From NCBI RefSeq assembly GCF_000308215.1, contig NZ_CAJE01000006.1, positions 1 to 50,647 of the forward strand: a stretch of 50,647 nt of DNA. The letters run 5' to 3'. Below the pieces are notes generated by a model. That model was not told the DNA's origin. It did no database searches and worked only from the letters and a program-made list of their open reading frames with translations. Below are positions 9,058-17,015 of this stretch, in pieces (positions within the stretch are counted from its first letter, which is position 1; every line of letters begins with the position of its first letter). The position numbers and the translations under genes are program-made. Source of the stretch: Methanomassiliicoccus luminyensis B10. GTDB lineage: Archaea > Thermoplasmatota > Thermoplasmata > Methanomassiliicoccales > Methanomassiliicoccaceae.

Positions 9058-9100
9058 AATAAATAGGACCTTGTCGATTCTGTTGGAGATATAATCCAAC
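9058..9100 (+). promoter_or_regulatory. TATA box plus operator copy 1 of the GTTGGAT palindrome
   Basis: AATAAATA (9058-9065) is the probable TATA box. Operator GTTGGAG-ATATA-ATCCAAC (9082-9100) covers the predicted transcription start near 9087. A further single half site, AAGTTGGAT, follows at about 9110-9118. It controls the small Cys protein at 9233. See also copies 2-4. Confidence 0.6.
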
Positions 9101-9187
9101 TAATATGTTAAGTTGGATGTATCTGCCGATAATTGAAGGATGAGCGGCCCCGGCGACATTGCCGCTGGCCCCGTCCCTCGCGAAAGG

Positions 9188-9210
9188 ATGGCCGATCCGG
9201 GATCGGCCAT
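9188..9210 (+). other. Perfect hairpin in the leader of the small Cys protein
   Basis: ATGGCCGATC and GATCGGCCAT form ten perfect pairs around a CGG loop. The hairpin ends nine bases before the ribosome-binding site GGAGGA (9219-9224). It could be an RNA control element or simply leader structure. Confidence 0.5.
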
Positions 9211-9232
9211 GAACATCTGGAGGAATAACAAG

Positions 9233-9508
9233 ATGACCATCGAAGCGAGCGAGATGTATGGGGATCCCCGTCCCCGGTGCCCCTTCGTGCCGGGCTTGCG
9301 ATGCGGTTCCAAGTTCGAACCTTTATGGAACGATAAGAACGGCAAGTACACCTGCCGCGACCCGATCTGCGCCTCCGTGTTCAGGTTCCCGGTCGTGGAG
9401 GGACCGAACACCTGCGGCAGGACCACGCGGCGAAGGAAGGCGTCGAAGCCCGCGGCCAAAGCAGGGGGTGTCATCATGGCCGTTGCAGGGCTCGACACCT
9501 GCCCATGA
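9233..9508 (+). CDS. Small Cys-containing protein of unknown function under the B12-linked operator
   Basis: A 91-residue protein I do not recognise. Cysteines in RCPFVPGLRC and YTCRDPIC (residues 16-47) could form a zinc site. The C-terminal third is basic and low in complexity (TTRRRKASKPAAKA). I choose ATG 9233 because GGAGGA lies eight bases upstream. The frame can be extended to ATG 9140, but this would run through the leader hairpin. Reality of the gene rests on the promoter, operator and ribosome-binding site, so confidence is moderate. Confidence 0.5.
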   Translation: MTIEASEMYGDPRPRCPFVPGLRCGSKFEPLWNDKNGKYTCRDPICASVFRFPVVEGPNTCGRTTRRRKASKPAAKAGGVIMAVAGLDTCP

Positions 9509-9633
9509 CGAGGTCTTCCCTTCACGGTATCCTCCACCTCTCGGCCGTGATGTCCGCGCGTACAGCGGCGCGGTCCATCCATGGTCCCGGAGGACGATGG
9601 GACCTTCTGTTCTATTCCATCGCCGGAAAGGGT

Positions 9634-9680
9634 GATATATCCAGTCCGGCATCTAGGGTCGGTTGGATGGGCCATCCAAT
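9634..9680 (+). promoter_or_regulatory. cobD operon promoter with operator copy 2
   Basis: GATATAT (9634-9640) is the TATA box. GTTGGAT-GGGCC-ATCCAAT (9662-9680) is a near-perfect palindrome sitting on the predicted start of transcription. The leader to the cobD ATG is about 150 bases, unusually long for this window. Confidence 0.65.
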
Positions 9681-9764
9681 AATGATCTTCCTCAGAAATG
9701 GCCTCAGACGGGGCCTCCCGGCGAAGGACTGAAATAGAGATATGGCCCTGAGCAGGAAAGGCCG

Positions 9765-9784
9765 CCCCCATGCGAGAATGGGGG
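9765..9784 (+). other. Leader hairpin upstream of cobD
   Basis: CCCCCAT pairs with ATGGGGG around a six-base loop, 21 bases before the ribosome-binding site AGGAGGAG (9806-9813). It is placed like the hairpin in the leader of the small Cys protein at 9188. Confidence 0.45.
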
Positions 9785-9818
9785 TCGCCATCGCGGACGG
9801 GACCTAGGAGGAGTATGC

Positions 9819-11021
9819 ATGGAGGGTAGCGAGATGGAGCAGCGCGAAGGATGCGGCGACTCCCGGGCAGGCCGGAAGCGGAAAGGCCTCGCCACGAGCG
9901 TGGAGGAGAGGGTCCGCCCGGAGGTCCGGAGCATGGCCCGCCCCCGGCACGGCGGGGACGTGTGGGGCTACAATGGGATCGAGGATTACAGCTCCAACGT
10001 CAACCCTCTCGGCGCTCCCGAGCGCCTCGCCGAGTACATACGCGACGCTGCCGGGGACCTAATCAACTATCCCGACGACACCGCTTCCGGACTGAAGGGA
10101 GCTATCGCCTCCCGGTACGATGTTCCCGCGGGCAGCATCGTGGTCGGCGCGGGGTCCGCCGAGCTGATACGCCTGTTCCCGGAAGTGTTCATTTCCCCCG
10201 GCGACAAGGTGGTCATGCCCAAGCCCACCTTCTCCGAGTACGGCTTCGCCTGCCGCCTGATGGGCGCGAGGATGGTCGACCACCCCCTGAGGGAGGAGGA
10301 TGGCTTCCGAGTCGACGTCGGTTCCCTGATCAACGCCCTGGACCGCGAGACCAAGGCGGTGTACCTCTGCAATCCCAATAATCCCGTGGGCCGCATGATC
10401 GGACGCCGGGAGGTAATGGAGCTGGTGGAGGAAGCGGGCCGCCGCGACGTGATGGTGTTCCTCGACGAGACGCTCCTGGAGCTGTCCGAGCGGGACCAGG
10501 ACGTCACCTGCGTTCACGAGGTCGAGTCGCACGACAACATGTTCCTGATCCGATCGTTCACCAAATCGTTCGCCATGCCCGGCCTGCGCATCGGCTACGG
10601 GTTCGGCAGCAAGGAGGTCATGCGCTTCATGGAGGCGGGACGCCTCTCCTGGAACATCGGGACGCTGGAGCAGAGGGTGGGGGCGCGCCTGATGTCCGAG
10701 GAGCAGGAGCACGTCCGCAAGGCCGTGCGCATGCTGGTGGACGAGAAGAAGCGGATGCATTCCGAACTGTCAAGGATATTGCCGTACCGGGTCCCCCTGC
10801 CCGACTCGTACTTCTTCTTCTGCCCCGTCCACCCGCTGGGCGTATCGTCCCGCCAGTTCCGCGCCGCCATGCTGGAGGAAAGGATGCTGGTCCGCGACTG
10901 CTCCTCCTTCGGGGCGCCATGCGACCGCTACTCCCGCTTCTGCGTGAAGACCCCCGAGAGGAACGAGGCGTTCCTCGGCGCCATGAGGTCCGCGGTGGAG
11001 AAGCTGGGGACGGGGCGGTGA
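9819..11021 (+). CDS. cobD: L-threonine-O-3-phosphate decarboxylase (CobD-type PLP enzyme)
   Basis: Makes (R)-1-amino-2-propanol phosphate, the linker attached to cobyric acid by CbiB. Seen: the aminotransferase class I/II fold with NYPDDTASGLKGAIA, VGAGSAELI, NPNNPVGRMI, and SFTKSFAMPGLRIGYGF with the PLP lysine at residue 249. This fold is shared with HisC, and a separate hisC exists at 34409. Position at the head of the B12 operon favours CobD. The first 45 residues or so are a charged extension. The start has a strong Shine-Dalgarno. Its TGA overlaps the region where cbiB begins. It sits behind operator copy 2. Confidence 0.88.
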   Translation: MEGSEMEQREGCGDSRAGRKRKGLATSVEERVRPEVRSMARPRHGGDVWGYNGIEDYSSNVNPLGAPERLAEYIRDAAGDLINYPDDTASGLKGAIASRYDVPAGSIVVGAGSAELIRLFPEVFISPGDKVVMPKPTFSEYGFACRLMGARMVDHPLREEDGFRVDVGSLINALDRETKAVYLCNPNNPVGRMIGRREVMELVEEAGRRDVMVFLDETLLELSERDQDVTCVHEVESHDNMFLIRSFTKSFAMPGLRIGYGFGSKEVMRFMEAGRLSWNIGTLEQRVGARLMSEEQEHVRKAVRMLVDEKKRMHSELSRILPYRVPLPDSYFFFCPVHPLGVSSRQFRAAMLEERMLVRDCSSFGAPCDRYSRFCVKTPERNEAFLGAMRSAVEKLGTGR

Positions 11022-11025
11022 TGAG

Positions 11026-12021
11026 CTGGATATTATCTGGTACGCCCTGCTGATCCCCATCATCGCGCTGGCCATCGATCTGGCGCTGGGGGACCCCCCC
11101 AACCGCTACCACCCGGTGGCGTGGATGGGCAGGGTCATGGGCTTCCTGGACGACCGGATCGCGAGGACCGGCCGCCCTGCCCGGGACAGGGCCATGGGCG
11201 TACTGGTGGTCCTGGTCCCCATCATCATCTTCGTGACCGGCCTCACCTTCCTGGTGGCCGCCGTCCGCAGCTGGCTGGGCATCATCGCCTGGGTCATCGC
11301 CTGCGCCGTGGTGTTCAAGATCACGTTCGCCATCCGCACCCTGGAGACGCACACCGCGCCGATGATCGAGCAGCTGAAGAACGACGACCTCGAGGGGGCG
11401 CGGAAGAAGGCGGCCATGGTGGTGTCCCGGGACGTGTACAAGCTCGACAAGGCCCATGTCACCTCGTGCGCCGCGGAGACGGTGGCCGAGAACCTGGTGG
11501 ACTCGGTCCTCTCCCCTATGTTCTGGTTCGGCCTGGCCGGCATCCCCGGGGCGGTGCTGCTCAGGACCTCCAACACCGCGGACGGGATGGTGGGGTACCT
11601 CAGCGAGAAGCACCGTTACGTGGGCTGGTTCTCCGCCCGGCTGGACGACGCCATGCACTATGTGGTGGCCCGGCTGTCGGTGCCGTTCATAATGCTGGCC
11701 CTGGCCATCATGGGCAAGGACTGGAGGAACGCCTGGAAGGTGGCGCTGCGCGATCACAAGCAGACATCCAGCCCCAACAAGGGGTGGCCCATGGCCGCGG
11801 TGGCCGGGGGCCTGGGGGTCAAGTTCGAGAAGATCGGCTATTACTCCATGGGGGACGGCGAGGTGGTGTGCGATCCCGAGAAGATAAGGGAAACGATCAA
11901 TGTGATGAAGCTCACCGGGGTGCTGTTCCTGTTCCTGGTACTGCTGCCTTTATTTGCCCTCATCGGCATCCATGTCCAGCTGTTCCTGGAGGACCTGCTG
12001 CTCGGCCTCATCGGACGGTGA
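11026..12021 (+). CDS. cbiB: Adenosylcobinamide-phosphate synthase CbiB, non-canonical start
   Basis: Integral membrane enzyme that joins cobyric acid to aminopropanol phosphate. Seen: several membrane helices, the family N-terminus DLALGDPPNRYHPVAWMGR, KLDKAHVTSCAAETVAENLVDS in two parts, TSNTADGMVGYLSEKH, and the C-terminal helix. The first usual start in frame is GTG 11116, inside the conserved HPVAWMGR, and would remove the first membrane helix (ALLIPIIALAIDLAL). The frame upstream is open to 10987 without ATG/GTG/TTG. CTG 11026 is the nearest plausible start, and I use it. Alternatively one base is missing after the ATG at 11021, which overlaps the cobD stop (TGATG context). Confidence 0.85.
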   Translation: MDIIWYALLIPIIALAIDLALGDPPNRYHPVAWMGRVMGFLDDRIARTGRPARDRAMGVLVVLVPIIIFVTGLTFLVAAVRSWLGIIAWVIACAVVFKITFAIRTLETHTAPMIEQLKNDDLEGARKKAAMVVSRDVYKLDKAHVTSCAAETVAENLVDSVLSPMFWFGLAGIPGAVLLRTSNTADGMVGYLSEKHRYVGWFSARLDDAMHYVVARLSVPFIMLALAIMGKDWRNAWKVALRDHKQTSSPNKGWPMAAVAGGLGVKFEKIGYYSMGDGEVVCDPEKIRETINVMKLTGVLFLFLVLLPLFALIGIHVQLFLEDLLLGLIGR

Positions 12022-12025
12022 TGTA

Positions 12026-13180
12026 TTGACGGAACTTGATGTCAAAGTGGAATTGAAGGACTATCATTTGTACAAGAGGCCGGTGGCCATCATCAGGCTG
12101 CCTTCCAACTTCAGGACACTGAGCTCGACCATCATGGGCGGGGGGTACATCGAGACCGACACCCTGTTCATCTTCGAGGTGCCGCTAGGATATGATGAGA
12201 GAGATCCCGAGGGGGACCTGGAGAAGGTGTGCCGCGAGTATGGCCTGGGGCCGCCCTGCGTGGGCTTCATGACCGCCGCGGACGTGAAGAGGGTCATCAC
12301 CGTGACCAAGGAAACGGTCAACGGCGTCACCGCCGTGACAGTGGCCACCGCTGGCACCACCAACGCGCTGGTGGCAGGGGAGCGGATATCCCAGGACATC
12401 CTCGACTCCCTCAATAAGCGCAAGGCGGGGACCATCAACATCATCACCGCCGTGGACGTGCCGCTGGAGGACTGCGGCATGGCCAACGCCATCATGACCA
12501 TGACCGAGGCCAAGGCCGCCGCCCTGAAGGATGTCGGGCTGAACGCGACGGGGACCACCAGCGATGCCGTGGCGATATGCTGCCCGCCCGGGAAGGGAGG
12601 CAAGTATGCCGGGACCGCCACCGACGTGGGGGTGGCCGTCGCTCGGTCCGTGAGGGCCGCGGTGGCCGGGTCGGTGCGCAAGTGGACCAACGGGAAGAAG
12701 GGCCCGGCCAAGGACTTCATGTCCCGGCTGGAGGAGATGGGGGTCGGCGAGGCGGAGATGTGGGAAGCGGCCGCCGGACTTTACGTGCCGGACCCCTCGT
12801 GGGGCGAGGAGATGATCCGGGAGAAGTTCCGCAAGCATCTTCGCGTGCTCCGCAAGGACATCAACGTCAACGCCATGGTCTTCGCGGCCATCAACATGGA
12901 GGAGATGGGGTGCCGCGACGAGATGTACGGCCTGGACCGGGGCCGCTATTTCCAGGACCCCGTGCACCTGGTGGCCGACGAGCTCTTGGGCATCGCCCTG
13001 GCGGAGTACATCGCCGGCACCAAGGGACTGTTCGAGTACGTCCGCTATGACAAGAAGAAGCCGGGCGTGCTGGGCACCCTCGGCCCGTTCCTCGACGACA
13101 TCGTCGCGTCCCTCATCGGCTCGATAATGTCCCGCATATACACTGAACTTCTGGAAGGTGAGGACAAATTAGGCTCCTGA
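12026..13180 (+). CDS. cbiZ: Fusion of adenosylcobinamide amidohydrolase (CbiZ) and alpha-ribazole-phosphate phosphatase (CobZ)
   Basis: Two-domain B12 protein of 384 residues. Residues 1 to about 225 match CbiZ, which cleaves salvaged cobinamide to cobyric acid: GGGYIETDTLFIFEV, TAGTTNALVAGE, GTINIITAVDVPLED, GTTSDAVAICCPPG and YAGTATDVGVAVARSV. Residues from about 235 resemble the PgpA-like CobZ phosphatase of methanogens: DPVHLVADELLGIALAEY and KKPGVLGTLGPFLDDIVA. CobZ removes the 5' phosphate late in nucleotide-loop assembly. It starts at TTG 12026, five bases after the cbiB stop. Domain calls are from motif memory; the CobZ assignment is the less certain half. Confidence 0.85.
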   Translation: MTELDVKVELKDYHLYKRPVAIIRLPSNFRTLSSTIMGGGYIETDTLFIFEVPLGYDERDPEGDLEKVCREYGLGPPCVGFMTAADVKRVITVTKETVNGVTAVTVATAGTTNALVAGERISQDILDSLNKRKAGTINIITAVDVPLEDCGMANAIMTMTEAKAAALKDVGLNATGTTSDAVAICCPPGKGGKYAGTATDVGVAVARSVRAAVAGSVRKWTNGKKGPAKDFMSRLEEMGVGEAEMWEAAAGLYVPDPSWGEEMIREKFRKHLRVLRKDINVNAMVFAAINMEEMGCRDEMYGLDRGRYFQDPVHLVADELLGIALAEYIAGTKGLFEYVRYDKKKPGVLGTLGPFLDDIVASLIGSIMSRIYTELLEGEDKLGS

Positions 13181-13956
13181 GCGCGGTAAAGGCGCAGTTC
13201 TCGCTGTTCACCATCCTGCCGGTGAACGCCTCGATGGAGGATGTGGACGAGCTCTCGCGCAACTTCTGGACGGCGCCGCTGATCGGCCTGTTCTACGGAC
13301 TGATCGCGGGCAGCCTGTTCTGGTTGCTGCACGATGTCTTCGGCGGCCTGGTGTCCGCGACCATCGTAATCCTGGTCGTGCACATGCTCAATCGCTTCCT
13401 GCACTTCGACGGCCTCATTGACCTCGGCGACGGCCTCGTCGCCACCGGAACGCAGGAGAAGAGGCTGGCGGCGATGAAGGACACCCGGGTGGGCGCCGGC
13501 GGGGTCAGCTACGGCGTGATGTTCACGCTGCTCATCGTAGCGTCCCTCGCCTCCCTGCCGGGGGTGGCCGGGCTGCTGTTCTTCGTCCCCCTGGCCATGG
13601 AGGTCCTGGCCAAGAACGGCCTGGTATCGGCGGCGTCCCTGGGCAGAGAGAGGGAGGGGCTGGGCAGCCCCTTCGTCAAGAACGCCGGTACCTCCGCCAT
13701 GCTGATGTCCACGGCCCTGTCGTTCGCCATCGTCATGCTCCTGGCCATCCTGTTCGTCGCTCCCCGGTCCGGGTTCCTGGTAGCGATCTTCCTGGCCTTC
13801 TGCATGGTCCTCGCCAGCGTGGTGGCCGGGGTGGTGGTGTCGGTGATAGCGACCCGCGCCTTCGGCTGCGTCAACGGCGATGTGATGGGCGCCACGAACG
13901 AACTGTCCAAGGCGGCGGTGCTCCTGGCCACCCTGGCGGTGCTGGCGTGGCTGTAG
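13168..13956 (+). CDS. cobS: Adenosylcobinamide-GDP ribazoletransferase CobS, possible ATT start
   Basis: Membrane enzyme that attaches alpha-ribazole to GDP-cobinamide. Seen: FSLFTILPVN (family N-terminus), FWTAPLIGLFYGLIAG, RFLHFDGLIDLGDGL, KDTRVGAGGVSYGV, and several membrane helices. A GTG at 13222 is the first usual start but lies behind the conserved N-terminus. In frame, ATT 13168 begins IRLLSAVKAQFSLFTILP and has GGTGAGG five bases upstream. No ATG/GTG/TTG lies between the upstream stop and 13222. I therefore take ATT 13168 (262 residues). It overlaps the end of the cbiZ-cobZ gene by 13 bases and cobY by 10. Confidence 0.85.
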   Translation: MRLLSAVKAQFSLFTILPVNASMEDVDELSRNFWTAPLIGLFYGLIAGSLFWLLHDVFGGLVSATIVILVVHMLNRFLHFDGLIDLGDGLVATGTQEKRLAAMKDTRVGAGGVSYGVMFTLLIVASLASLPGVAGLLFFVPLAMEVLAKNGLVSAASLGREREGLGSPFVKNAGTSAMLMSTALSFAIVMLLAILFVAPRSGFLVAIFLAFCMVLASVVAGVVVSVIATRAFGCVNGDVMGATNELSKAAVLLATLAVLAWL

Positions 13957-14567
13957 ACGCCCTCATCACCGCCGGGGGCAAGGGCACCAGGATGAGGGAG
14001 CTGGGGGGCGAAAAGCCCATGATCCCGGTGCTGGGGCGTCCGCTCATAGATTATGTCCTGGATGCAGTGAGGGGGTCGAGATCGGTCGGCGATGTGTACG
14101 TTTCCGTGAGCGACAACACTCCCCTGACGCGAGCATACCTGAAGGAGCGCGGAGTCAACGTGATCGAGACCTCCGGCGAGGAGTACGCTCATGACCTTGG
14201 CCAGGCCCTGGGGGCCCTGCGGACCGACCAAGTGCTCATCTGCCCGGCGGACATGCCCCTGATGTCTTCCAGAGAGATCGACGACATCATCGGCGGGTAC
14301 TCCCGCTCCGGGGTGGAATCGTACTCCGTGGCCATACCTCACGAGATGCTCCAGCGGCTGGGGGCGAGGCCGACGACCTACCGGTTCACCGTGGGCGGCG
14401 TGGACACCGTGCTGTGCGGAATATCGGTCGTCGACCGGAAGAAGATGGTCTCGGGAGCGGTGCTCACCGAGGGCTACCTGGTCATGAGATCTGAGGACCT
14501 CGCGCTCAACGTCAACACCGCGGACGATCTCAGAGCGGCGGAGAAGAGGCTGAGGGAGAGGGCCTGA
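13947..14567 (+). CDS. cobY: GTP:adenosylcobinamide-phosphate guanylyltransferase CobY
   Basis: Archaeal replacement for the guanylyltransferase of CobU: makes adenosyl-GDP-cobinamide. Seen: nucleotidyltransferase start ALITAGGKGTRM, GEKPMIPVLGRPLIDYVLDA, the CPADMPLMS metal-binding strand, and LALNVNTADDLRAAE at the end. The length of 206 residues is typical. It starts at GTG 13947 inside the last codons of cobS. It is the last gene of the cobD-cbiB-cbiZ/cobZ-cobS-cobY run. A weak inverted repeat (AGCCCA/TGGGCT) follows just after the stop. Confidence 0.9.
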   Translation: MAVDALITAGGKGTRMRELGGEKPMIPVLGRPLIDYVLDAVRGSRSVGDVYVSVSDNTPLTRAYLKERGVNVIETSGEEYAHDLGQALGALRTDQVLICPADMPLMSSREIDDIIGGYSRSGVESYSVAIPHEMLQRLGARPTTYRFTVGGVDTVLCGISVVDRKKMVSGAVLTEGYLVMRSEDLALNVNTADDLRAAEKRLRERA

Positions 14568-14639
14568 GCCCATCGCCTCGCTTGGGCTTGGAGGAGGTTC
14601 CGCCGGCGATGGCCCCCACTGGTTTTAAAATCTCATAAT

Positions 14640-15286
14640 GGGAATATACCTGGATTCGACGATAGCCGCATCTACTTCGGCGCATGGTGCAGCACCGGCA
14701 GCGCTCCTGGAAAATACTGTTGCCTGAACGCCGAGAACGGGACGACGATGTGGGAACGTTCGTCATCTAACAGCCACGGCTATCACTGGGCTGGCGCCGT
14801 GGTCATCGGCGACTACCTTGTGTACGACGACGAAGGAGGCAACCTGATTTCGGTGGACAAGCTCACCGGGGCGACGATCGAGGACAGGAACGTCACCGCT
14901 CTGCTGGGCATACCGATCAGCAGCATTCGCTCCTCCGTTTCACATTCGGCGGAGTCCGACCGCGTGCTCCTCACCGTCCAGGACGGCTATGTCTGCGCCC
15001 TCGGCTTCAATGCCGACGACGGCACTTTCGACAATGGGGACAAGTGGGCCGCGAAGTTCAGCGATCGCTCCACATCGACCCCGGCTGTATGCGGCGGCAA
15101 GATCTATGTGGGGAGCGGCGCTTACATGGGCGCTCCCGCCGGCACGGCTGCTATTGTCTGAGCGAGAGCGACGGCTCGGTCCTGTGGAACTATGTGGACA
15201 AGGTCGACGGCGTGGCGACAGCGCACAATACTGTCCAGTCCTCCACGGTGATCTCGACCCACTACGACGACGGCGACGGAGAAGGA
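14640..15286 (+). pseudogene. Broken PQQ-type beta-propeller repeat protein
   Basis: Remnant of a secreted or surface propeller protein. In one frame: DDSRIYFGAWCSTGSAPG, CCLNAENGTTMW, GDYLVYDDEGGNLISVDKL, and TPAVCGGKIYVGSGAYMG. This frame stops at 15161. In the next frame the repeat continues (YCLSESDGSVLWNYVDK, QSSTVISTHYDDG), so there is a frameshift near 15140. No signal peptide or start codon is seen at the front and no continuation after about 15286. It is a fragment, not a working gene. Confidence 0.6.
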
Positions 15287-15467
15287 TTAGAACAGACCGA
15301 GGATGACGAACTCCGTCGTCCGCAAACCCCTTCGTCCATCCTCTTTTTCGTTCTTGACAAAGATCATCTTTGCCCATCAGGAATATCCAGCAACATTTTT
15401 TTCCCAAGAGTTTGGTCTCTAATGCACTCTCTAATCTATTAGTAATTGTTATCAATAATATGGAAAT

Positions 15468-15517
15468 GATATATATTGGAAGGGCTTATACCGATTTAGT
15501 TGGATATTGCATCCTAC
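15468..15517 (+). promoter_or_regulatory. Promoter with operator copy 3
   Basis: GATATATATT (15468-15477) is the TATA box. GTTGGAT-ATTGC-ATCCTAC (15499-15517) is the palindrome with one mismatch between arms, again at the predicted start of transcription. The 67-residue gene at 15556 follows 38 bases later. Confidence 0.6.
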
Positions 15518-15555
15518 TTATCAAACTGGCTGGATGATTTAATGGTGGAAACGGC

Positions 15556-15759
15556 ATGAAGATGGGAAATGGTGAGATTCCAGAGGAAGCGATCGGCCCC
15601 AATGACGGGAAAGGCCCTGTTCCTGAAGTGAGGAGCACTGTGATCGAGACATATATCGTCACGGAGGAAGGGCCTCTCAAATTGGCGGGGTTCTATGTCC
15701 GCGTAGATAGGAATACGGGGGAAAAGAGCCCCCTCAGGCGGCTGATAGAATCGGAATGA
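15556..15759 (+). CDS. 67-residue protein of unknown function, candidate B12-linked gene
   Basis: Small acidic, proline-containing protein with no family I recognise. It reads as a flexible N-terminus followed by strands VRSTVIETYIVTEEG and LKLAGFYVRVDRNTG. GGTGG lies nine bases before the ATG. A TATA box and operator copy 3 precede it, and stem-loops follow the stop. This good gene architecture for so short a frame argues that it is real. Its operator is shared with cobT and the cobD operon. Confidence 0.55.
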   Translation: MKMGNGEIPEEAIGPNDGKGPVPEVRSTVIETYIVTEEGPLKLAGFYVRVDRNTGEKSPLRRLIESE

Positions 15760-15797
15760 CCTTCTCGCTACGGCGCCGGGCCGCGCCGGAGAAAGGT
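15760..15797 (+). terminator. Stem-loop after the 67-residue gene
   Basis: CGGCGC and GCGCCG pair around CGGGCC, with an outer CTTCTC/GAGAAAG arm that pairs imperfectly. It starts right after the stop codon. Confidence 0.4.
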
Positions 15798-15819
15798 CTC
15801 ATCTGACCAAAACAATGAA

Positions 15820-15840
15820 GAAAGGGGCCGAAGCCCCGTT
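15820..15840 (-). terminator. cobT terminator with TTCG loop
   Basis: On the minus strand the hairpin GGGGC-TTCG-GCCCC stands just after the cobT stop and is followed by TTTCTTC. The TTCG loop makes it very stable. On the plus strand the same stem ends in GTTTTA, so it may serve both directions. Confidence 0.6.
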
Positions 15841-16947
15841 TTACCGCCGTGATACCAGTCTAGCGTAGTTCTTCTCGATCTCGTCCAGCATGGTCCGCGC
15901 GGTGATCTTGCCCTCACTTTTGGCCATGGCCGCGATGGTCGTTCCGCCGGCGCCGACGCCTTCCTTGACCAGCCCGGTCTCGTAGATCTTGAGGCCGTCG
16001 TAGCGGGACTGCGTGAAGTTCAGGTTCGCGGCGAGCACCGGGACCTTGCCTATCTTGGCGACAAGGTTGCGTATGTCCGAGGTCTTGTCCTTGCTGATCC
16101 ACCGGGTGGTCCCGATGGCCACGTTGTCGAGGACGGTGTCGTCCATGCCCGCGACTATCGCCAGCACCGCGGCCATCTGGGTCCCTCCGGCCATGAGCAC
16201 GGGGACGGATTCCGCCGCGCCGACCACCAGGCCCGCGGCCGCCGCCATCATGGGGTCGCCAACGGCCTCTATGGCGGCCATGGGGTCCTTCTTAAGCGCC
16301 TCCCTGCTCATCCCGCATTTGCTGAGGCCTTCCGCGACCACCTGAGTCTTGAGGTCATGGGGGTTGGCCGGGAGAGTGCTGGAGACCTTCCCGTCGGCCT
16401 CGTAGCCCAGAGCGTTCAGCACGCCCAGCGCGGTGGTGGTGCCGCCCGGGATGGACTCGCTGACGATCAGGTATTCGCCGATCTTGGCGAGGTTCTTCCC
16501 GGCCAGCACGGCACGGTCGAAGCACTTCTCGGGATCCTTTACCGCCCTTCCGGTCCTGATGTCCTCTCCGGTGACGCCGTCGACATCGATGTATGGCACG
16601 TGCGGGCGCACCCTCACGCCGCCGTTCACCACGATGATGGGCATGTTGACCAGCTTGGCCGCGGACATGGTGATCAGGCCAGGGGTCGGTATGCCATCAG
16701 GGGTCACCGGCACGCCGTCCATGCATTTGCACTTGCCGTAGAACAACAGCTCCATGTCCGCCGCGGGCGTGAAGTCGCAGGCCTCGGGGTTGGCCCCCGC
16801 GGCCGATACGCCGGGGATCTTGGCCGTCTCGGTGTTGCCGATGACGCACGTATAGGTGGGGTTCTTCCCCCAGATGCGTTCAACGAATTTCCTGCCCTTT
16901 TCTTCCTCCAGACAGAGGATAATATCTTCCGGGACTTTGAACGACAT
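15841..16947 (-). CDS. cobT: Nicotinate-nucleotide-dimethylbenzimidazole phosphoribosyltransferase-like CobT (archaeal)
   Basis: Activates the lower-ligand base to alpha-ribazole phosphate for the B12 nucleotide loop. Seen: an archaeal CobT-like sequence with SAAGANPEACDFTPAADME, MPIIVVNGGVRVRPHVP, ESIPGGTTTALGVLNALGY, VGDPMMAAAAGLVVGA, LMAGGTQMAAVLAIV and GVGAGGTTIAAMA. ATG 16947 is chosen (368 residues). GGAG lies about ten bases upstream, and an earlier start at 16965 would add six unsupported residues. It is transcribed alone towards the 67-residue gene, behind operator copy 4. With the cobD operon it completes nucleotide-loop assembly. Confidence 0.9.
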   Translation of the reverse strand: MSFKVPEDIILCLEEEKGRKFVERIWGKNPTYTCVIGNTETAKIPGVSAAGANPEACDFTPAADMELLFYGKCKCMDGVPVTPDGIPTPGLITMSAAKLVNMPIIVVNGGVRVRPHVPYIDVDGVTGEDIRTGRAVKDPEKCFDRAVLAGKNLAKIGEYLIVSESIPGGTTTALGVLNALGYEADGKVSSTLPANPHDLKTQVVAEGLSKCGMSREALKKDPMAAIEAVGDPMMAAAAGLVVGAAESVPVLMAGGTQMAAVLAIVAGMDDTVLDNVAIGTTRWISKDKTSDIRNLVAKIGKVPVLAANLNFTQSRYDGLKIYETGLVKEGVGAGGTTIAAMAKSEGKITARTMLDEIEKNYARLVSRR

Positions 16948-16970
16948 GGTTTCAGCTCCGAACAACCACA

Positions 16971-17015
16971 GTTGGATGATTCATCCAACGGAATGCCTAC
17001 AGTCTATTTAACTAT
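16971..17015 (-). promoter_or_regulatory. cobT promoter with operator copy 4 (perfect palindrome)
   Basis: GTTGGATGATTCATCCAAC (16971-16989) is a perfect 19-base palindrome about its central base. On the minus strand TTAAATAG (17004-17011) is the TATA box, which puts the predicted transcription start inside the palindrome. The position fits repression by blocking polymerase. Confidence 0.7.

Follow-up and report, generated by a model that had tools for sequence, protein, structure and literature searches.

Between positions 9058 and 17015 of a 50,647-nucleotide stretch of the Methanomassiliicoccus luminyensis B10 genome (contig NZ_CAJE01000006.1, positions 1 to 50,647; hereafter the window), four palindromes lie at the promoters of a cobalamin operon, of cobT and of two small open reading frames (ORFs). 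An earlier reading of the letters alone (the original prediction) had placed them at 9082-9100, 9662-9680, 15499-15517 and 16971-16989, and all four were recovered there letter by letter. The TATA-like boxes that it had described were also found, ~19-26 bp before each site as read from the sequence. Two sites indeed front B12 genes (the aminotransferase/cbiB/cbiZ/cobS/cobY operon and cobT), and the other two front small ORFs without Pfam match. The features of the region are as follows.

9058..9065, plus strand: TATA-like box AATAAATA, read from the sequence, centre ~20 bp before the site at 9082
9082..9100, no strand: predicted operator GTTGGAGATATAATCCAAC, one mismatch, from sequence and motif scan
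9112..9118, plus strand: extra half-site GTTGGAT near the site at 9082, from the sequence
9233..9508, plus strand: 91-aa cysteine-rich ORF, GGAGG before its ATG, no Pfam match
9634..9640, plus strand: TATA-like GATATAT, from the sequence, centre 25 bp before the site at 9662
9662..9680, no strand: predicted operator GTTGGATGGGCCATCCAAT of the cobalamin operon, one mismatch, motif scan
9819..11021, plus strand: class I/II aminotransferase, CobD/CobC-like, first gene of the operon (PF00155)
11023..12021, plus strand: CbiB/CobD cobinamide synthase (PF03186)
12026..13180, plus strand: CbiZ adenosylcobinamide amidohydrolase with a PgpA-like tail (PF01955)
13171..13956, plus strand: CobS cobalamin-5-phosphate synthase (PF02654)
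13947..14567, plus strand: MobA-like NTP transferase, CobY-type
15470..15477, plus strand: TATA box TATATATT, from the sequence, centre 25 bp before the site at 15499
15499..15517, no strand: predicted operator GTTGGATATTGCATCCTAC, one mismatch, motif scan
15556..15759, plus strand: 67-aa ORF, no Pfam match
15841..16947, minus strand: CobT-type phosphoribosyltransferase (PF02277)
16971..16989, no strand: predicted operator GTTGGATGATTCATCCAAC of cobT, perfect match; an operator also stands at cobT in genome G003 (L102)
17005..17012, minus strand: TATA-like GTTAAATA, centre 19 bp before the site at 16971 on the minus strand

In addition to its upstream box, the site at 9082 carries a TATA-like CTAATATG directly on its 3' side. 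No homologues of the 91-aa and 67-aa ORFs were found in the retrieved regulon loci, to which this search was limited.

Searching the window with GTTGGAT-N5-ATCCAAC returned seven matches with up to three mismatches, compared with 1.6 expected and with none of 100 shuffles reaching seven; the matches with no or one mismatch are exactly the four sites listed above. The whole genome (G000; 2,620,233 bases in 26 contigs, of which the window is contig 6) holds 34 sites with up to two mismatches (5 exact, 14 with one and 15 with two), while a reversed-pattern control gave 2. The original prediction had called for such a scan of this and related genomes, which placed the sites in intergenic DNA before B12, cobalt and corrinoid genes. 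Across loci of 16 genomes, 88 of 90 sites (up to two mismatches) are intergenic, though coding sequence makes up 87% of the DNA; gene-related counts here rest on our own simple gene caller. A motif equally frequent within genes or before unrelated genes, the outcome that would speak against the prediction, did not appear. The consensus built from 84 sites is a 19-bp palindrome, RTTGGATG-WWW-CATCCAAY, in which GGA and TCC are nearly invariant. Extra half-sites occur within 60 bp of 41 of the 88 sites, compared with 2 for a reversed-hexamer control, and this clustering suggests that the operator may be bound cooperatively or in tandem.

The motif is present in 37 of the 41 Methanomassiliicoccales genomes, where the control yields zero or one match per genome, and in none of 19 genomes from other orders of the class. 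Within the order it is kept across genera before cobT, cbiT, cbiA, BtuF, a dehydrogenase and a radical S-adenosylmethionine (SAM)/amidohydrolase gene pair. In the rest of the phylum it is sporadic, and several matches (GTTGGATTGCTAATCCAAT; L062-L067, L071) were rejected as the anticodon arm of tRNA-Ser(GCU), which mimics the operator. These matches fit the idea that the repeats arose by chance or are structural, in the manner of tRNA-like elements or RNA hairpins. For the main set this idea is almost certainly wrong and is refuted by the genome-wide excess (34 versus 2), the 98% intergenic placement and the retention at orthologous promoters.

The original prediction had the sites cover the start of transcription, as a repressor site would. 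The TATA spacing at the sites of the window fits this; as a sole geometry it did not survive, being one of two in the related loci. Among the 30 sites with an unambiguous target, a TATA box is centred 18-29 bp upstream at eight, so that the site lies over the start, and 20-29 bp after the site start at another eight, where the TATA box follows immediately and the site borders its upstream edge. One or other fixed position thus accounts for 16 of 30 sites, while shuffled flanks gave a mean of 3.8 and a maximum of 13. Both geometries would suit repression, and the TATA-edge arrangement could also suit activation. A repressor is plausible, with the qualification that sites bordering the TATA box on its upstream side are about as frequent as sites over the start.

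By our count, about 17 of the 24 promoters of G000 serve corrinoid, cobalt or tetrapyrrole genes. Sites precede an operon running cbiT...cbiG...cbiD, cbiC, cbiA and cobQ-type genes, cbiM, and importers of the BtuD/BtuC/BtuF type, several of them together with CobN. Secreted PQQ/PKD and DUF4430 proteins also stand behind sites, accompanied by CbiQ and by an ECF S component, and the tetrapyrrole branch is represented by an operon of a precorrin-2 dehydrogenase-like protein (NAD_binding_7) and hemA. The Pfam identities of the targets are NAD_binding_7 with GlutR, CbiG, CbiD, CbiX, FecCD, CobN, CbiC, CbiM, CbiA/GATase_3, Peripla_BP_2, CbiQ with the ECF S component, DUF4430 and B12-binding. From the sequence, position, conservation and target identity of these sites, we take the palindromes to be operators of a single factor that controls corrinoid synthesis, salvage and uptake, cobalt uptake and early tetrapyrrole synthesis across the Methanomassiliicoccales, with a probability of about 0.82. 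The B12 link originally proposed thus holds up, while the regulon is not local, as had been thought, but genome-wide and order-wide. Some observations count against this reading. About seven promoters of G000 have no obvious B12 link; the less clear targets comprise a radical-SAM/amidohydrolase pair, a zinc-dehydrogenase/Glycos_transf_3 pair, a BspA-LRR protein, an Lrp-type gene, a Sel1-like gene and the two small ORFs of the window. Moreover, G020 and some of its relatives have few or no good sites.

The signal could be cobalt or a tetrapyrrole intermediate rather than the finished corrinoid, as the cobalt importer, the CobN chelatases and the hemA operon among the targets would allow. We consider this unlikely, given that the targets are mainly proteins of import and salvage (BtuFCD, CbiZ, DUF4430/ECF, CobT), whose need follows the finished corrinoid, and that in DPANN genomes the site occurs only at B12-capture-like genes. 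No Rfam riboswitch was detected in the window or in seven regulon loci, and the cobalamin riboswitch RF00174 had no match at the gathering score in the window and 139 kb of regulon loci. Very probably, Methanomassiliicoccales control B12 by a DNA-binding protein rather than by a riboswitch.

The original prediction saw no obvious regulator gene nearby. This remains correct insofar as our candidate does not lie near the window; a candidate can nevertheless be named, a short (~195 aa) protein of the PH0730 family that combines a CggR_N-like winged helix-turn-helix (wHTH) domain with DUF4443 (PF14544). With a little better than even odds, we infer that this wHTH-DUF4443 protein is the regulator. 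Its gene follows SAM synthetase in most genomes examined and lies in G000 at C12 ~204,140-204,723 on the plus strand. Within the order, the DUF4443 family is found in 40 of 41 genomes, and in 32 of 32 if only good genomes are counted; it is also present in all four tested archaeal genomes outside the order that carry the consensus (L183, L185, L187, L213). The gene directly adjoins the operator in seven genomes (G017, G028, G031, G040, G019, G022, G025) and also in G060, outside the class; in all, gene and site are neighbours in at least nine genomes. In families f3, f4 and f6 it is linked to an operator-bearing promoter, and in f6 no site other than the adjacent one was found in the genome. 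Furthermore, in two Micrarchaeota-type genomes (L213/L185) an exact operator forms the divergent promoter of the wHTH-DUF4443 gene and of secreted alpha/alpha-toroid genes. In the rest of the phylum, motif and DUF4443 co-occur (Fisher p 0.002, on small numbers).

Several results weigh against this assignment. DUF4443 was not confined to genomes with the operator: it occurs in most of 45 sampled genomes related to G173, almost none of which has the strict motif, and there it has genes other than B12 genes as neighbours. Within the family to which the window's genome belongs, no site adjoins the DUF4443 gene. Co-variation of the wing with the operator in genus g9, considered as proof for DUF4443, was weakened by outgroups that have the same operator with other wings, and a symmetric variant motif in g9 was dropped after the variant scan gave only one site per genome. 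As to the family itself, G029 has eight DUF4443 matches, an expansion, and its congener G020 has only a ~338-aa version, the short one having been lost, with only one AT-type site.

Two other binders of the same operator and regulon were weighed. The first is the FUR-family protein encoded by the first gene of the cbiMNQO cobalt operon; it would sense cobalt or another metal. Cobalt genes do belong to the regulon, and a FUR gene stands directly at a site in G003 and G011 (downstream of the operator and at the head of a cbiM(N)QO cobalt operon, L103 8266-8649 and L111 4768-5151) and next to cbiM in the window's genome (a tandem pair, L026 368-1270). Nonetheless, FUR (PF01475) is absent from the well-covered genomes G002, G004 and G013, which have 8-10 sites, and from G005, G017, G015 and G037; taken with further genomes that lack FUR, the range is 6-10 sites. 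We rejected it as master regulator because of this phyletic pattern, which makes that role very unlikely; FUR looks like a member of the regulon instead. The second, which we regard as only somewhat unlikely, is a different factor, such as an Lrp/AsnC protein, an XRE-CBS protein or one never encoded beside sites. A site lies 306 bp before an Lrp/AsnC gene (L016 9164), an XRE-CBS gene stands beside SAM synthetase in G017, G028 and G031, and the adjacency of DUF4443 to sites could reflect inherited gene order. Neither Lrp nor XRE-CBS, however, shows cross-phylum linkage to the operator, and neither the G060 locus nor the Micrarchaeota loci contain XRE-CBS.

For operator DNA such as GTTGGATGATACATCCAAC, we infer the following mechanism. 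A dimeric winged-helix protein would bind the palindrome and, while corrinoid is sufficient, would block transcription by covering the start or the edge of the transcription factor B recognition element (BRE) and TATA box. When corrinoid falls, the protein would release the operator, so that the genes for synthesis, salvage and import would turn on jointly.

Comparison with known systems places this candidate as follows. RbkR, the archaeal CTP-dependent riboflavin kinase/regulator, is a wHTH regulator of vitamin genes, to which the candidate has a weak fold match; effector domain, vitamin and operator all differ. The N-terminal domain matches CggR_N and CggR-operator structures of the CggR/SorC group, whereas the effector domain is DUF4443 and not a sugar-phosphate domain. 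CarH and LitR are MerR-type proteins with a B12-binding domain that control the light response, and DUF4443, unlike them, has no B12-binding Pfam match; both are protein regulators that sense B12 (for CarH, PMC7689651). Within the PH0730 family (wHTH plus DUF4443, PDB 2P8T) the candidate is a member (phmmer E 2.5e-17, Foldseek template modelling score 0.70). In the papers found, PH0730 has no assigned function and is mentioned just once, in a table of a Pyrococcus furiosus transcription factor list; on DUF4443 the literature searches found nothing, and the B12 link is new. Bacterial B12 riboswitches cover capture, import, salvage, synthesis and cobalt supply (PMC7689651). The present regulon resembles the bacterial RF00174 regulons in placing the synthesis of B12 under one control with its import and that of cobalt, and differs in its short DNA palindrome at the promoter.

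An exact scan with GTTGGATGWWWCATCCAAC of 84,980 species genomes gave 31 stretches, mostly from Methanomassiliicoccales. In other archaeal phyla the motif is rare and again mostly precedes genes of the B12-uptake type. In the Nitrososphaerota neighbourhood, the consensus precedes BtuF in two genomes (L183, L246); in Candidatus Benthortus (Nitrososphaerota) it lies before a btuF-btuC-btuD set. Only 2 of 61 genomes around Benthortus have a strict match, and in the second, too, a Peripla_BP_2 gene follows it. Further cases outside the order place the consensus before DUF4430/DUF6580 (L070) and before transcobalamin-like toroid genes (L213, L185). The Micrarchaeota neighbourhood has a strict match in only 3 of 60 genomes, one of them within a gene; the G186 match and a second G176 match, both within genes, look like chance and were discarded. 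The secreted alpha/alpha-toroid proteins (L213 79-4378, L185 4223-5728) resemble the transcobalamin architecture, and DUF4430 is found near the operator in a Micrarchaeota genome, with ribonucleotide reductase nearby, and in a relative. It is possible that B12 is captured in DPANN via such toroid/DUF4430 proteins. Tentatively, and at a little under even odds, wHTH-DUF4443 may represent an ancient archaeal B12 sensor-regulator, extending from Micrarchaeota to Thermoplasmatota, that would act through one near-invariant 19-bp operator as the archaeal counterpart of the B12 riboswitch; under its control would stand the capture and synthesis of B12 and the supply of cobalt, with a small regulatory RNA among the targets.

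We found no described B12 regulator of archaea in the open literature. Methanomassiliicoccales grow on methyl compounds with the help of corrinoid proteins, on which they depend, and because of this dependence a corrinoid regulon would be central to methane production in gut and rumen. Corrinoid methyltransferases have been described (PMC4153887). The operator offers a ready DNA bait and predicts functions for secreted proteins, importers and nitrogenase-like enzymes that have lacked one, while the DUF4443/PH0730 family, whose structure is solved but unexplained, receives a proposed function.

The small RNA mentioned above is a candidate, on modest evidence. In three species (L101 8092, L106 7885, L208 3748), an operator with a TATA box lies between the convergent genes for mevalonate kinase and geranylgeranyl reductase. 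On the 3' side of this intergenic operator is a potential RNA, conserved in the three species, with a closing stem of 11 bp (GCCCGTTCGCC/GGCGAACGGGC) and a loop containing CCTCCTA; it may be an operator-controlled transcript of the regulon. Its support consists of three sequences, in which compensatory changes are few, and the third, folded by itself on a truncated stretch, did no better than shuffles.

Further observations concern individual operator-linked genes. Some secreted proteins (L018 9510-10832, L019 305-1618, L116, L199, L206) carry a dockerin-like calcium-repeat segment ahead of a BtuF-like part; two of them have no Pfam match at 1e-6. Radical-SAM and amidohydrolase genes are divergent and have two operators in common in two genera (L021 8222-11039, L104 6731-9613). 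In four genera (L023 9620-11779, L091, L105, L110), one or two operators precede the zinc-dehydrogenase, which adjoins a Glycos_transf_3 protein in G000; corrinoid lower-ligand chemistry is a possible role. Finally, a nitrogenase-like NifH-NifD fusion and NifD-like proteins occur near CobN and ChlI/D-like genes (L026 7609-11060, L205 6503-7999, L211 3308-5401, L116 16152-17000), several directly behind an operator, and possibly represent a novel tetrapyrrole- or corrinoid-modifying enzyme.

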